Of a stretch of DNA of 64,000 nucleotides, positions 18,776 through 24,905 are shown in pieces; position 1 is the stretch's first letter, and every line of letters begins with the position of its first letter. The notes under the pieces are model-generated. The model was not told where the DNA came from, ran no database searches, and worked only from the letters and a program-made list of their open reading frames with translations. Source of the stretch: Desulfoscipio geothermicus DSM 3669 (lineage in GTDB: Bacteria; Bacillota; Desulfotomaculia; Desulfotomaculales; Desulfallaceae); the NCBI RefSeq assembly GCF_900115975.1, contig NZ_FOYM01000004.1, forward strand, positions 1 through 64,000, in the 5' to 3' direction. The position numbers were made by a program, and so were the translations under genes.

Positions 18776-19156
18776 TTATTGGGTCTGAATATCACTGTAG
18801 TTGCCGTACCCGCCCATCATGCCGGGGCCGTAATTACCGTTATAGCCACCCATCATACCATATCCGTAATTGCCGTTGCCGCCAAAACCGCCCATCATGC
18901 CACCCATCATGCCAAAACCATATTGATTATGGAAATCTCTCATGTAATCAAAATGCTCTTTCCAGGCTTTAGCTTGATCGTCACTTATTTGGCCATTTTT
19001 CACGGCGTCATTAAGCCATTGTTCATGCCAGTCGAACATTTGATCAAAGAATTGGTTGGAGTACCCGTTGTTGGGGTTAATGGCAGCCATTGCGCTGGGG
19101 GCTATCAAGGCAACTACCAGGAGTACCCCTGCAGCTAAGATAAATGCTTTTTTCAT
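18776..19156 (-). CDS. Secreted Met/Gly-rich small protein
   Basis: A 126-aa protein with a clear signal peptide (M-K-K-A-F, hydrophobic core, A-M-A-A near residue 24). Then comes a helical W-H-E-Q-W ... D-D-Q-A-K-A-W-K-E-H-F segment like DUF2680-type exported proteins, and a low-complexity tail built of G-M-M-G-G and G-Y-x-G-N-Y-G units. Met-rich tails often bind Cu(I), but this is only a suggestion here. A near-identical copy lacking its start lies at 22561-22941. AAGGGTG precedes the ATG. Function unknown. Confidence 0.75.
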   Translation of the reverse strand: MKKAFILAAGVLLVVALIAPSAMAAINPNNGYSNQFFDQMFDWHEQWLNDAVKNGQISDDQAKAWKEHFDYMRDFHNQYGFGMMGGMMGGFGGNGNYGYGMMGGYNGNYGPGMMGGYGNYSDIQTQ

Positions 19157-20681: not shown

Positions 20682-21398
20682 TTGCATGAAAAAATATGTG
20701 AATCATTAATTGAACAGGCCCAATTGGGTGATCACCTGGCGCGGGAGCAAATCATTGAACAAGGTAAGCCATTCATAGCCAAGGTAAGTTCCACTATTTG
20801 CAAGAGATATCTATGCTGGGGTAGGGACGAGGAATTAAGTGTTGCTCTGTTGGCTTATAATGAAGCCATAGATGCCTATAATAAAGATAATAAGACGACT
20901 TTTACAACTTTTGCGCACAGGGTAATACATCGCCGGCTGGTGGATTACTTCCGAAAAGAAGTAAAGCAGCAACATCTGTCACTGGTACCGATTGACGAAG
21001 ATAATAATGAATTTAGTAAAGCGGAAAAAGACATTTCCATAATCAAATATCAAGACAGTACGCAACAAGAGGACCTCGTCGCTACTATAGCAACCTTTAA
21101 TATGATTCTCAAGGATTATGGAATAACTTTTAAAAATTTGGTAAAGTGCTCACCGAAACACCGCGATACAAGAGAAAACCTGATGCGTATAGCATTATAT
21201 ATTGCTGAGAATAACGAGTTGTTTACTCAGTTGAAAAAAACAAAGCGTTTACCTGTTCATGAACTTTGTAAAAAGCTGGGGGTAAGCCGTAAAGTAATTG
21301 AAAAGGGGAGAAAATACATAATTGCCCTGACTCTCATTTTAACCGAACCGGAGTTAACAGCACTGAAGAATTTCACAAGTTTTCCTAATACAATTTAA
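20682..21398 (+). CDS. sigI: RNA polymerase sigma factor SigI
   Basis: A 238-aa sigma-I-type factor. Region 2-like sequence (A-R-E-Q-I-I-E-x-x-x-P-F-I, then A-L-L-A-Y-N-E-A-I-D-A-Y ... F-x-T-F-A-H-R-V-I-H-R-R-L-V-D-Y-F-R-K-E) lies in the first 110 residues, and a SigI-specific C-terminal helix-turn-helix (K-L-G-V-S-R-K-V-I-E-K-G-R-K-Y-I) near 200. SigI controls heat/cell-envelope genes in Bacillus and polysaccharide-responsive genes in Clostridium. TTG 20682 is the start with GGAG upstream. rsgI follows 13 bases after the stop, the canonical pair. Confidence 0.88.
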   Translation: MHEKICESLIEQAQLGDHLAREQIIEQGKPFIAKVSSTICKRYLCWGRDEELSVALLAYNEAIDAYNKDNKTTFTTFAHRVIHRRLVDYFRKEVKQQHLSLVPIDEDNNEFSKAEKDISIIKYQDSTQQEDLVATIATFNMILKDYGITFKNLVKCSPKHRDTRENLMRIALYIAENNELFTQLKKTKRLPVHELCKKLGVSRKVIEKGRKYIIALTLILTEPELTALKNFTSFPNTI

Positions 21399-21411
21399 GA
21401 AGGTGTCTGCC

Positions 21412-22488
21412 ATGAAAATTTCGGGGGTAGTTATTGAAACTTGTAAAAAAAGAAATATGGTTACTGTTTATACCAGCAATGGCCAGTTCTTGAAGGTACC
21501 TGCTCCAAGATTTGATATAAAAACCGGGGAAATAATCGAAGTACCACAAAACGCAACCCGATGTGTTAGAAAAACAATGTTATCTATGCGGGTTATTTCA
21601 GCTGCCGCAGCCGTATTTGCTTTGGTTATGTTCTTAAGTATTTACCTTGCATTTTTTACTGTCCCGGTATCGGCTTACGTAGCTCTGGATTTCAATCCCA
21701 GTTTGGAACTTAAAATCAACAAGCAAGCAAAAGTAATGGATGTCCGCAGTATTAACGAAGATGCTGATAAGTTATTGAAAGACTTGAACTTAAAGGATGC
21801 AAATGTATATAAAGCTGTGGAAAAAATAATGGATAAAGCAATTGCCCTTGGGTATATAAAACTTGATGAAAAAAATCTGGTTATTGCTTCGGTAGTGCCG
21901 GTTGGTGAAGAAACTGTTGTTGATAGAGAAAAGTTGGAATCAGTAATTGCAAATAATATACAGCAAAAGGAAATTGACAGTTATATATTGGTAGATACAA
22001 GTAATGAAAAAACACGCAATATTGCTGCCGAAAATGGGCTTTCCGTAAATAGGTATAAAGTTATGGAACATTATCATGAGGCCGGCTTAAATATTAGCGC
22101 CCAAGAAATTAATAATAAAAATATGATGGATATTATGAAAGATAATAATATATATTTAACTAAAAAACAGGATTATACAACACTGACACATCAAAATGAA
22201 ATAAACCCAGGAAAAAATGCTGGCATGCAGAACAACAGTGATATGATGGAAACCAGTGGCGCTTTAATGAGCAACAATATGGATAGAGATTCATCCAAAT
22301 CACAATTTAATTATATACAACGTTCGGGAGATATGAAAAACGATACAATGCATAATGGCAGCGAAAAAAATGAACAAACAATGGAGTCGTCGCGCACCGG
22401 TGATACTGATATGAATCATGACCAATATGAGGACATGAAATATCCAAATAAACAAATGAACCATGATATGTCAAGAATAAAATATTAA
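21412..22488 (+). CDS. rsgI: Anti-sigma-I factor RsgI
   Basis: A 358-aa membrane protein. An N-terminal RsgI domain (I-S-G-V-V-I-E ... V-Y-T-S-N-G-Q-F-L-K-V) binds SigI in the cytoplasm; a single membrane helix lies near residues 63-85; the external part (A-Y-V-A-L-D-F-N-P-S-L-E-L-K-I-N) is the conserved extracytoplasmic RsgI domain. The last 120 residues are an Asn/Met/Asp-rich low-complexity tail instead of a carbohydrate-binding module. ATG 21412 is favoured (AAGGTG upstream). The Met/Asn-rich tail resembles that of the adjacent Met/Gly-rich protein in composition, which may hint at a shared ligand such as a metal (inference). Confidence 0.85.
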   Translation: MKISGVVIETCKKRNMVTVYTSNGQFLKVPAPRFDIKTGEIIEVPQNATRCVRKTMLSMRVISAAAAVFALVMFLSIYLAFFTVPVSAYVALDFNPSLELKINKQAKVMDVRSINEDADKLLKDLNLKDANVYKAVEKIMDKAIALGYIKLDEKNLVIASVVPVGEETVVDREKLESVIANNIQQKEIDSYILVDTSNEKTRNIAAENGLSVNRYKVMEHYHEAGLNISAQEINNKNMMDIMKDNNIYLTKKQDYTTLTHQNEINPGKNAGMQNNSDMMETSGALMSNNMDRDSSKSQFNYIQRSGDMKNDTMHNGSEKNEQTMESSRTGDTDMNHDQYEDMKYPNKQMNHDMSRIKY

Positions 22489-22529: not shown

Positions 22530-22941
22530 AGATTTTAGACAATCATTTTAATTCATTTGCTTATTGGGTCTGAATATCACTGTAGTTGCCGTACCCGCCC
22601 ATCATGCCAGGGCCGTAATTACCGTTATAGCCACCCATCATACCATATCCGTAATTGCCGTTGCCGCCAAAACCGCCCATCATGCCACCCATCATGCCAC
22701 CCATCATGCCAAAACCATATTGATTATGGAAATCTCTCATGTAATCAAAATGCTCTTTCCAGGCTTTGGCTTGATCGTCACTTATTTGGCCATTTTTCAC
22801 GGCGTCATTAAGCCATTGTTCATGCCAGTCAAACATTTGATCAAAGAATTGGTTGGGGTATCCGTTGTTGGGATTGATGGCAGCCATTGCGCTGGGGGCT
22901 ATCAAGGCAACTACCAGGAGTACCCCTGCAGCTAAGATAAA
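22530..22941 (-). pseudogene. Duplicate of the Met/Gly-rich secreted protein, signal peptide start lost
   Basis: Bases 22530-22941 repeat 18744-19144 with a few substitutions and one extra 12-base M-M-G-G unit. Homology stops three or four codons after where the start should be; upstream in frame is a TAA with no ATG/GTG. TTG 22905 could start a product lacking a signal peptide. The copy without the intron end shows what the 18744 flank looked like before insertion. Reading frame otherwise intact, ending at 22561. Confidence 0.7.
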
Positions 22942-23132: not shown

Positions 23133-23345
23133 TTATTTGGAAATGTTAAGTATATAATCTAATCCCCGTTGTTTAACTATAACATTCCATCCCTTATTTT
23201 CGCACAATCTAGTTACGTTTTCTTTGGCGGCTGGATTATCCACCATAACCTCTATGGAACCGCCTGGTAACTGGTCAATTACTTTTTTCGTGAGTAAAAC
23301 GGGTTCAGGGCAAAGTAACCCCCTGGCATCAACTGTTCTGCTCAA
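23133..23345 (-). CDS. TusA/SirA-family sulfur-carrier protein
   Basis: A 70-aa TusA-like protein. It starts with D-A-R-G-L-L-C-P-E-P-V, containing the single Cys that carries persulfide (or selenide) in the C-P-x-P motif, and ends in a beta-rich domain. The ATG overlaps the last codons of yedE, so the two are translationally coupled. YedE-TusA (YedF-like) pairs are associated with thiosulfate/sulfur or selenium uptake; the nearby selC-like tRNA makes a selenium or cysteine-coding link tempting but unproven. Confidence 0.85.
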   Translation of the reverse strand: MSRTVDARGLLCPEPVLLTKKVIDQLPGGSIEVMVDNPAAKENVTRLCENKGWNVIVKQRGLDYILNISK

Positions 23346-24414
23346 AATTTACACCCCCGGACATAGAAAATTGTTTGTTGCCTAAATATCCAAGACCCAG
23401 AACCAGGATTAAACCAACTACGACAGCCCATTGACCCGCTACAGGTACCCCCTTCGGGCTGGCAGCAAGGCCAAAATTATGGGCAAAAGCCGCACCAGCT
23501 ATTAAACCTAAAATTGAAATTACACAGTCCGTATTACCTTCACTGGCGGCTATTAACTGCCTTAAAGGGCATCCCCCAAGCAACGTCACTGCAGTACCGG
23601 CCAGGGCCATGCCTAGGAAATTCCAAACACCGTCACTGTGGGCTACCGGCTGGCCTGCAAAACCAGGGGTAAACATCCCGGTAATTAAGTTCCCTGCAAA
23701 AGCAAAAACAAGCATGGCTACGAAACCAATCAGCAGATGCACATCTTTAAACAGAATAAAGTCCCTAATACCACCAATCATACAAAACCGCGACCGCTGG
23801 GCCAAAATTCCCACGGCAATCCCGGCCCCAAGTGACAGAAATACCGGAGCGTGCATCGCCCCAGGTCCCTCCTGGCTTGTATAAAATACTGTTGTGCCGA
23901 ATAGAACCAATACGGTTATCACAAGGGTTACCAGGGGAAATACCTGGCCGTTTAAGTTGTGCTGCACATTTGCCCTGCCAAGGGAAAAGCCTTGGTTTAA
24001 AAAGTAAATTCCTACTGCTATACCAGCTATCAAACCTACAATTCCGACAATCGCATTTAGATCACCACCAGCCAATCTCAACACCGCACGGACGGGGCAG
24101 CCCAAAAAGACAAGCATACCGATCATGGCCACAAAAGCCAGGAAAAACCTGATTAAAGGACTGGATCCGCCTACTGATTTATACTCTCTGGTAAGCAAGG
24201 CTGCTCCAAAAGCACCAATGACCATACCCAAAATTTCGGGACGTATGTACTGGACGGGTGCCGCTTTGTGAAAACCCAGCCCGCCGCTGATATCGCGTAA
24301 AAAACAAGCAATGCAGTAACCCATATTGGGTGGGTTCCCGTATTTAACAAGCAATACTGCCATTACGCCAATAACTCCCCCTGTTACCCCCACCAACAAC
24401 CTCTTCTTTTGCAT
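23329..24414 (-). CDS. yedE: YeeE/YedE-family sulfur or selenium transporter
   Basis: A 361-aa protein with about ten membrane segments in two homologous halves. Conserved cysteine motifs mark the pore: G-Y-C-I-A-C-F near residue 33, F-L-G-C-P-V-R near 104, R-S-R-F-C-M-I-G-G near 208 and L-L-G-G-C-P-L-R-Q near 283. YeeE of this superfamily imports thiosulfate, and the YedE subgroup is annotated as a putative selenium transporter. GAGAGGTGG precedes ATG 24414. It begins only 24 bases after the 3' end of the selC-like tRNA on the same strand, so the two are probably one transcript. Confidence 0.88.
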   Translation of the reverse strand: MQKKRLLVGVTGGVIGVMAVLLVKYGNPPNMGYCIACFLRDISGGLGFHKAAPVQYIRPEILGMVIGAFGAALLTREYKSVGGSSPLIRFFLAFVAMIGMLVFLGCPVRAVLRLAGGDLNAIVGIVGLIAGIAVGIYFLNQGFSLGRANVQHNLNGQVFPLVTLVITVLVLFGTTVFYTSQEGPGAMHAPVFLSLGAGIAVGILAQRSRFCMIGGIRDFILFKDVHLLIGFVAMLVFAFAGNLITGMFTPGFAGQPVAHSDGVWNFLGMALAGTAVTLLGGCPLRQLIAASEGNTDCVISILGLIAGAAFAHNFGLAASPKGVPVAGQWAVVVGLILVLGLGYLGNKQFSMSGGVNFEQNS

Positions 24415-24437: not shown

Positions 24438-24534
24438 TGGAGGGGAAAAGTCGGAATCGAACCGGACTTCCACTTGGATCACAAGCAGGCCAAGGGGTTT
24501 GCAGCCCGTGGGGGGCACCAACCCCATTTTCCCC
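24438..24534 (-). tRNA. selC-shaped tRNA with Cys anticodon GCA
   Basis: A 97-base RNA gene. Acceptor stem of eight pairs (GGGGAAAA 24534-24527 with TTTTCCCC 24449-24442), discriminator T at 24441 and encoded CCA. The D arm is a five-pair stem (GGGGT/GCCCC) with a four-base loop TGGT, as in bacterial tRNA-Sec. A long variable arm (CTTGG/CCAAG) and a T arm with TTCGATT loop and one bulged C (five pairs) follow. The anticodon loop CTGCAAA gives GCA (Cys, reads UGC); its stem is irregular beyond three G-C pairs. U73 is a CysRS identity base, while the 8-pair acceptor and D arm mimic tRNA-Sec. Related selC-like Cys tRNAs have been reported in tRNA surveys; the role is unsettled. Confidence 0.7.
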
Positions 24535-24905
24535 GGCTCTATTATTCAATATTATTCCATGGGTATCCTTTATTAACGTTATTTAATTATTTTATTAAGC
24601 TTTGCCTTTTGTTTAAACTTTTTTATGAACTTAAGACATAAAATAAATACAATGGTTTGCAAAACATAAAAGCCCGCCCTCCTTTCTAAAAAGGAATCAG
24701 CGAGCTTTGGCTATCATATTGGACTATTCTGCTCCCATTGATGAAAGAAGCGGGCTGTTCATTTTATTTTACAGTGGTACTTTCCAAAGATACTATGAAA
24801 AAAGAATCCATCGTTTGCAACACTACCCATAAAACATGTAACAAAACAAAAAGGTTGGACGTGCATTTCTGCGTCCAACCTCTAATCCGTTAATTTTTGT
24901 GGTTT
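24535..24905. other. Intergenic stretch with a long-range stem (24671-24756)
   Basis: AGCCCGC at 24671-24677 pairs with GCGGGCT at 24750-24756, enclosing about 70 bases that contain a smaller CCTTTC/AAAGG-type stem. On the minus strand the closing arm is followed by TTTATGTTTT, terminator-like. It lies between tRNA-Leu and the selC-like tRNA and could be a small RNA, a processing element or an overgrown terminator. No coding frame is convincing here. Confidence 0.4.
24852..24881 (-). terminator. Terminator after tRNA-Leu
   Basis: On the minus strand AGGTTGGACG...CGTCCAACCT is followed by TTTTGTTTTGTT, about 25 bases after the tRNA 3' end. Confidence 0.8.

Follow-up and report, generated by a model that had tools for sequence, protein, structure and literature searches.

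A selenocysteine-like cysteine tRNA in front of a putative selenium transporter gene in Desulfoscipio geothermicus and its relatives

In Desulfoscipio geothermicus DSM 3669, a tRNA gene that has the overall shape of a selenocysteine tRNA and the anticodon of a cysteine tRNA is situated directly in front of a yedE gene. Is it a working tRNA, to which class does it belong, and what might connect it with a putative selenium transporter? The locus lies in a stretch of 64,000 nucleotides (hereafter the window), for which no plasmid match was found; the genome comprises 3.65 Mb in 83 contigs, and the YedE comparison places Desulfotruncus arcticus and Desulfallas sp. Bu1-1 among its near relatives. 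The features of the locus are compiled in Table 1.

Table 1. Coordinates of the features of the tRNA-yedE locus (positions in the window)
Feature	Position	Strand	Evidence
TusA/YedF-like protein, overlaps yedE end	23133..23345	minus	Pfam TusA 70.5 bits; TIGR03527 YedF 62.3, cut-off 110
yedE, putative selenium transporter	23329..24414	minus	TIGR04112 seleno_YedE 488.7 bits, cut-off 200; Pfam Sulf_transp
selC*-type tRNA-Cys, CCA included	24438..24534	minus	ARAGORN; Rfam tRNA-Sec 40.4 bits; model R1 103.7 bits
Discriminator U73 (Cys identity)	24441..24441	minus	Sequence; homologue comparison
Bulged C in T stem, either of two Cs	24464..24465	minus	Alignment and structure
Anticodon arm with C28-C42 mismatch (24508 with 24494)	24494..24508	minus	13-homologue alignment; folding
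Anticodon GCA	24500..24502	minus	ARAGORN (anticodon at position 33); sequence
Double LysR-type box ATAA-N7-AAAT-N7-ATAA-N7-CCAT	24559..24595	minus	37 bp, 25-61 nt upstream of tRNA

Structure and class of the tRNA

ARAGORN predicts a tRNA-Cys(GCA) at 24442-24534 on the minus strand. The original prediction, made from the letters of the sequence, had proposed an eight-pair acceptor stem, a D arm with a four-base loop, a long variable arm, a bulged T stem, anticodon GCA, U73 and an encoded CCA, and had suggested a comparison with covariance models. In that comparison, the Rfam tRNA-Sec model (RF01852) spans the whole tRNA, though with 40.4 bits (E 1.7e-6) it stays below its cut-off of 47, and the general Rfam tRNA model reports no match. 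Each of the proposed elements is borne out by ARAGORN, Rfam, the sequence itself and the alignment: the acceptor stem has 8 bp (GGGGAAAA/UUUUCCCC), the D arm reads GGGGU-UGGU-GCCCC and thus has the 4-nt loop UGGU, the variable arm is long, and the T stem (GUC(C)GG/CCGAC) contains one bulged C with five pairs counted. Across 13 homologues this structure is paired in 97.7% of cells (43-63% with slid partners), and in 5 pairs both sides have changed. In the T stems of the homologues, the bulged base is either A (L111, L124) or C, or a bulge is missing altogether (L202). At position 28-42, the window copy has C-C, a mismatch which the original prediction had not listed, whereas the other 12 aligned copies have C-G.

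With its 8-bp acceptor stem, 4-nt D loop and long variable arm the tRNA resembles bacterial tRNA-Sec (selC), but it carries GCA instead of UCA and U73 instead of G73 and scores below the RF01852 cut-off. Neither is it an ordinary tRNA-Cys, for which a 7-bp acceptor stem and a short variable loop would be expected. The Sec-like fold, the long acceptor stem and variable arm, and U73 together with GCA are those of the selC*-type tRNA-Cys; it is a real tRNA and belongs to this known class. Such tRNAs were reportedly treated by Mukai in 2017 and, with Desulfotomaculum nigrificans, by Vargas-Rodriguez in 2018, and the class is presumably the one also called tRNA-ReC.

Concerning the published class, selC* tRNA-Cys with tRNA-Sec shape, U73 and either GCA or UCA is known from Firmicutes and other anaerobes, and is described as '8/4' with an unpaired adenosine 51a, a bulge called dispensable (PMC7609411). 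The window tRNA differs from this description in its bulged C and its five T-stem pairs, and furthermore in the mismatch of its anticodon stem. For D. nigrificans, PMC11415595 reports a GCA tRNA-Cys of Sec-like structure by which Sec UGA codons are read with Cys, and names SelB, not EF-Tu, as its carrier. The Cys tRNA shaped for handling by SelB that had been envisaged for the window is therefore a type already described (PMC7609411, PMC11415595), and the role of the class as a backup adaptor that places Cys at Sec positions is already known.

As in other hosts of selC* tRNA-Cys, selC and SelB are present in the window genome. It contains an ordinary tRNA-Cys on a separate contig (C40) and a UCA selC, both of which the original prediction had suggested looking for, as well as SelA, one full SelB and one CysRS above cut-off. 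The single SelB and CysRS are situated on other contigs, and no second SelB or CysRS above cut-off was found in the genome. A special second SelB or CysRS serving the tRNA is thus rejected; in the selC*/selB*/cysS* cluster of Desulfobacterales, by contrast, a second selB or cysS adjoins the tRNA. A second and better-preserved Sec-like tRNA-Cys, followed by a tRNA-Lys(CTT), is found on contig C27; it reaches 119.1 bits with model R1 versus 103.7 bits for the window copy.

Linkage to yedE and distribution

Between the CCA of the tRNA and the ATG of yedE there are 23 nt, in agreement with the start of yedE 24 bases downstream given in the original prediction. YedE is predicted to be a selenium-related transporter in the accessible part of Lin 2015 (PMC5322559), which also describes a LysR_Se regulator and, in that part, mentions no tRNA-Cys with the YedE, YedF and LysR_Se genes. 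The window YedE agrees with that set in passing TIGR04112, as do, with NF040786, the LysR genes found next to such loci in relatives. The small protein encoded behind yedE (70 aa) scores best with the YedF model, of which it covers the first domain only, and reaches no equivalog cut-off; it is not a YedF as defined by TIGR03527 (TusA plus DsrE domains), since the second domain is absent. A modification of the tRNA via TusA, which had been proposed, is not borne out: the small protein is nearest to a selenium model, and TusA-linked modification finds no specific support.

The juxtaposition with a sulfur/selenium importer, in which the original prediction had seen a hint of a functional unit, recurs in relatives. 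A same-strand tRNA directly upstream of yedE is found at 23 loci in six families of the order (six loci in f1, one in f3, five in f4, eight in f7, one in f11 and two in f15). At 22 of these 23 loci, tusA was detected behind yedE, the exception being L128. No report of the linkage was found in the literature covered, and in the selC* accounts among it neither the yedE-tusA linkage nor the shared motif treated below is mentioned. The recurrent operon, and a control sequence common to a Sec-like Cys tRNA and a predicted selenium-uptake gene, appear to be new.

The linkage is far from universal: many yedE genes have no tRNA in front, many Sec-like tRNA-Cys genes have no yedE behind them, and several genomes keep only one of the partners. 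On the YedE tree, linkage changes 11 times, as compared to a mean of 16.1 after shuffling, with 3 of 500 shuffles as low. The linked loci are thus clustered, as would be expected if tRNA and yedE-tusA merely formed a neutral neighbourhood that was inherited without function. Well-supported branches require at least eight gains or losses, however, so that the linkage has been gained or lost repeatedly; none of the eight f7 genomes has lost it, and outside the order, in genome G388 (L204), the tRNA is situated between yedE and tusA. In addition, a motif common to unlinked genes (see below) argues for one regulon, and we consider the neutral neighbourhood improbable.

Concerning the distribution of the tRNA itself, 113 genomes represent the order, and a covariance model built from 13 copies finds matches in 73 of them. 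Among the 81 loci found there, 72 combine U73 with GCA, apart from two of them with ACA instead, and nine possess UCA with A or G at position 73. Most of the UCA loci are situated in operons whose tested proteins match Sao families (SaoT, SaoE, SaoX, SaoB). Six UCA-type loci of family f16 (L116, L118, L119, L125, L132, L139), all with A73, lie directly behind a gene ending in Asp-Cys-Cys-stop, and the tested proteins of their operons match SaoT/SaoE/SaoX/SaoB. In a sample of the phylum, 32 of 398 genomes match the covariance model; five loci outside the order (L196, L200, L206, L208, L209) possess UCA and G73 and represent ordinary selC. The selA gene is present in 19 of 19 matching genomes outside the order versus 13 of 18 non-matching ones (Fisher p=0.02), an association which is weak because the matching set includes genomes in which only ordinary selC matches. 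Inside the order, SelA is useless as a discriminator, as nearly all genomes carry it.

Other neighbourhoods of the tRNA recur as well. At seven loci (L082, L096, L114, L121, L137, L048, L052), the neighbours are proteins clustering with one from L082, which matches the double-cubane-cluster reductase family NF040772. At five further loci (L028, L047, L053, L055, L080), the Sec-like tRNA-Cys is followed by a protein of 71-77 aa, often with a tRNA-Lys(CTT) nearby; the small protein behind the L028 tRNA has no Pfam or NCBIfam family match.

Upstream double box and candidate regulator

The upstream regions of linked loci contain two ATAA-N7-TTAT boxes 22 bp apart, which have the T-N11-A form of LysR sites. 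This double box was first spotted by eye and scored afterwards in the same sequences, with a trained motif built on 17 linked loci; the motif is AT-rich and related loci are not independent, and the following p values should be read with this in mind. Scored by leave-one-out, 16 of the 17 linked loci reach p<0.01 against shuffles, and the window box yields p=0.003 against shuffles and, with 393 upstream regions taken as background, p=0.010. The plain symmetric pattern brings 11 of the 17 linked loci to p<0.01 against shuffles; the window is not among them (p=0.23), its box being significant only with the trained motif.

The motif is also found where the partners are separated. At p<0.01 against shuffles, it occurs in front of 14 of 18 yedE genes that lack an intact tRNA and of 26 of 47 tRNAs without yedE, as compared to 3 of 51 other tRNA genes taken from the genome as controls; 17 of the 47 have no match even at p<0.05. 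Against the 393 background regions, 8 of the 18 yedE genes and 13 of the 47 unlinked tRNAs remain at p<0.01.

A candidate for the protein that binds the box is found in the neighbourhood. Just upstream of the tRNA, a gene for a LysR_Sec_metab protein above cut-off is situated at L130, L133, L134 and L135, these tested regulators belonging to three families (f2, f7, f11); L214 has one too, and at most other f7 loci a LysR gene is present by sequence. At L130 (f2) yedE was not found, and the other three tested loci possess it, such that a selenium-associated LysR gene adjoins the tRNA-yedE operon in two families. In the window's own family, a regulator of this type occurs in 16 of 16 genomes. 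Judging from the adjacency and from the T-N11-A form of the boxes, the LysR_Se regulator probably binds the double box. A search in front of the LysR_Sec_metab genes in the window's family yielded no good double box, and an autoregulatory box there is rejected.

Rfam contains no known regulatory RNA matching upstream of the window tRNA. The stretch 24655-24905 (minus strand), between tRNA-Leu and tRNA-Cys, folds strongly (z -3.2) and has a T-rich end and no Rfam family; it probably represents terminators after tRNA-Leu.

Might the tRNA act mainly in cis, its folding, processing or charging as a leader controlling the expression of yedE? Its close and steady position before yedE in most linked loci would suit such a role, as would the changed anticodons of some linked copies and the folding predictions, which give two of four copies an alternative structure. 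The upstream motif, however, is the same at unlinked tRNAs and unlinked yedE genes, so that control of transcription suffices without a leader; the encoded CCA and the conserved cloverleaf point to a working tRNA, and no terminator-like hairpin was found between tRNA and yedE. A leader acting in cis is therefore highly improbable.

Proposed function and state of the window copy

We put the probability at about 0.55 that a selC*-type Cys tRNA is here the first gene of an operon with yedE and the TusA/YedF-like carrier behind a LysR operator, and that selenium shortage raises both selenium uptake and Cys-for-Sec replacement. Points that count against this reading are the misfold and the lesions described below, the many yedE genes and Sec-like tRNAs that stand alone, the limits of the motif, the missing double box in front of the family's LysR_Sec_metab genes, and the archaeal yedE deletion treated below. 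The tRNA would be charged with Cys by CysRS, as U73 and GCA suggest for the window copy, and its long acceptor stem would direct it to SelB instead of EF-Tu. By analogy with the findings on the relative D. nigrificans, it would then insert Cys at Sec UGA codons. The 23-nt spacing, with no terminator-like hairpin found in it, suggests that it is transcribed together with yedE, which would serve selenium uptake, and with the putative carrier; the double LysR-type operator would precede this transcript, probably bound by the selenium-associated regulator.

For the direction of regulation, the closest parallel is archaeal. In Methanococcus maripaludis, depletion of selenium raises yedE mRNA by 5.28 log2, and HrsM, a LysR_Se protein of this archaeon, switches Cys isogenes according to selenium status; the deletion of yedE causes no clear defect in selenium uptake. 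As in the system proposed here, a LysR_Se protein thus controls Cys-containing replacements by selenium and yedE is induced on depletion, which is why we expect induction under selenium shortage, with scavenging and Cys-for-Sec replacement both raised. HrsM acts on isogenes, whereas the switch presumed here would act on the tRNA. On the best reading, a selenium-responsive regulon would couple uptake with Cys-for-Sec recoding. More tentatively, and with somewhat less than an even chance, a selenium-sensing LysR protein may co-regulate the importer and the Sec-like Cys tRNA through one double-box operator, such that Sec UGA is read as Cys when selenium is short. Such a LysR-controlled reassignment of UGA would parallel, at the level of translation, the change to Cys isoenzymes in the archaeon, and what UGA means in these bacteria would vary with nutrition under transcriptional control. 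The operon and motif shared with a putative selenium transporter point to selenium shortage as a concrete condition open to experiment, and they supply a candidate for the regulator.

The window copy itself raises doubts of another kind. The best fold predicted for it departs from the cloverleaf, which, when imposed as a constraint, comes out 4.9 kcal/mol worse, as compared to a gap of 0.4 kcal/mol in the sister copy; the folding was computed on unmodified RNA and constitutes a hint only. Together with the C28-C42 mismatch, the predicted misfold suggests that the copy may be weakened. Further lesions affect yedE-linked copies of the same family, namely a damaged T arm in G007, the anticodon ACA in G008 and G012, and a relic tRNA before yedE in G013 (L217). 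By a hand count chosen post hoc, lesions are present in 5 of 7 yedE-linked versus 1 of 8 unlinked copies of the family (p=0.04). On these grounds, there is a real chance that the window copy is fading while its sister works.

Taken to its end, this would make the window copy a duplicate in decay, with the functional copy elsewhere in the genome and only the yedE promoter still of importance here; the lower R1 score of the window copy would fit this. Yet the window retains an intact acceptor stem, T arm and anticodon along with U73, CCA and the upstream box, single anticodon-stem mismatches occur elsewhere too (L099, L122), and the yedE-linked copies of families f4 and f7 look intact; we therefore hold complete decay to be rather unlikely. 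The original prediction had named a decayed tRNA as the finding that would speak against it: the mismatch and the predicted misfold lend this some weight for the window copy, but not for the class, which is conserved. The second genome copy probably carries most of the work, and the window copy looks partly degraded.

The anticodon ACA was seen in yedE-linked copies only (L045 in G012, L054 in G008, and the relic L217 in G013); its A34, which deamination would turn into I34, could alter how UGA is read. In G012, the yedE behind the ACA tRNA (L045, around 1620-1720) is frameshifted near its start, apparently by a short tandem duplication, and a second yedE is present in this genome.

Elsewhere in the window, two near-identical copies of a gene for a Met/Gly-rich protein (18776-19156 and 22561-22905) flank a probable sigma factor/anti-sigma pair (20682-22488), and positions 269-352 match an Rfam group II intron with 45.2 bits.
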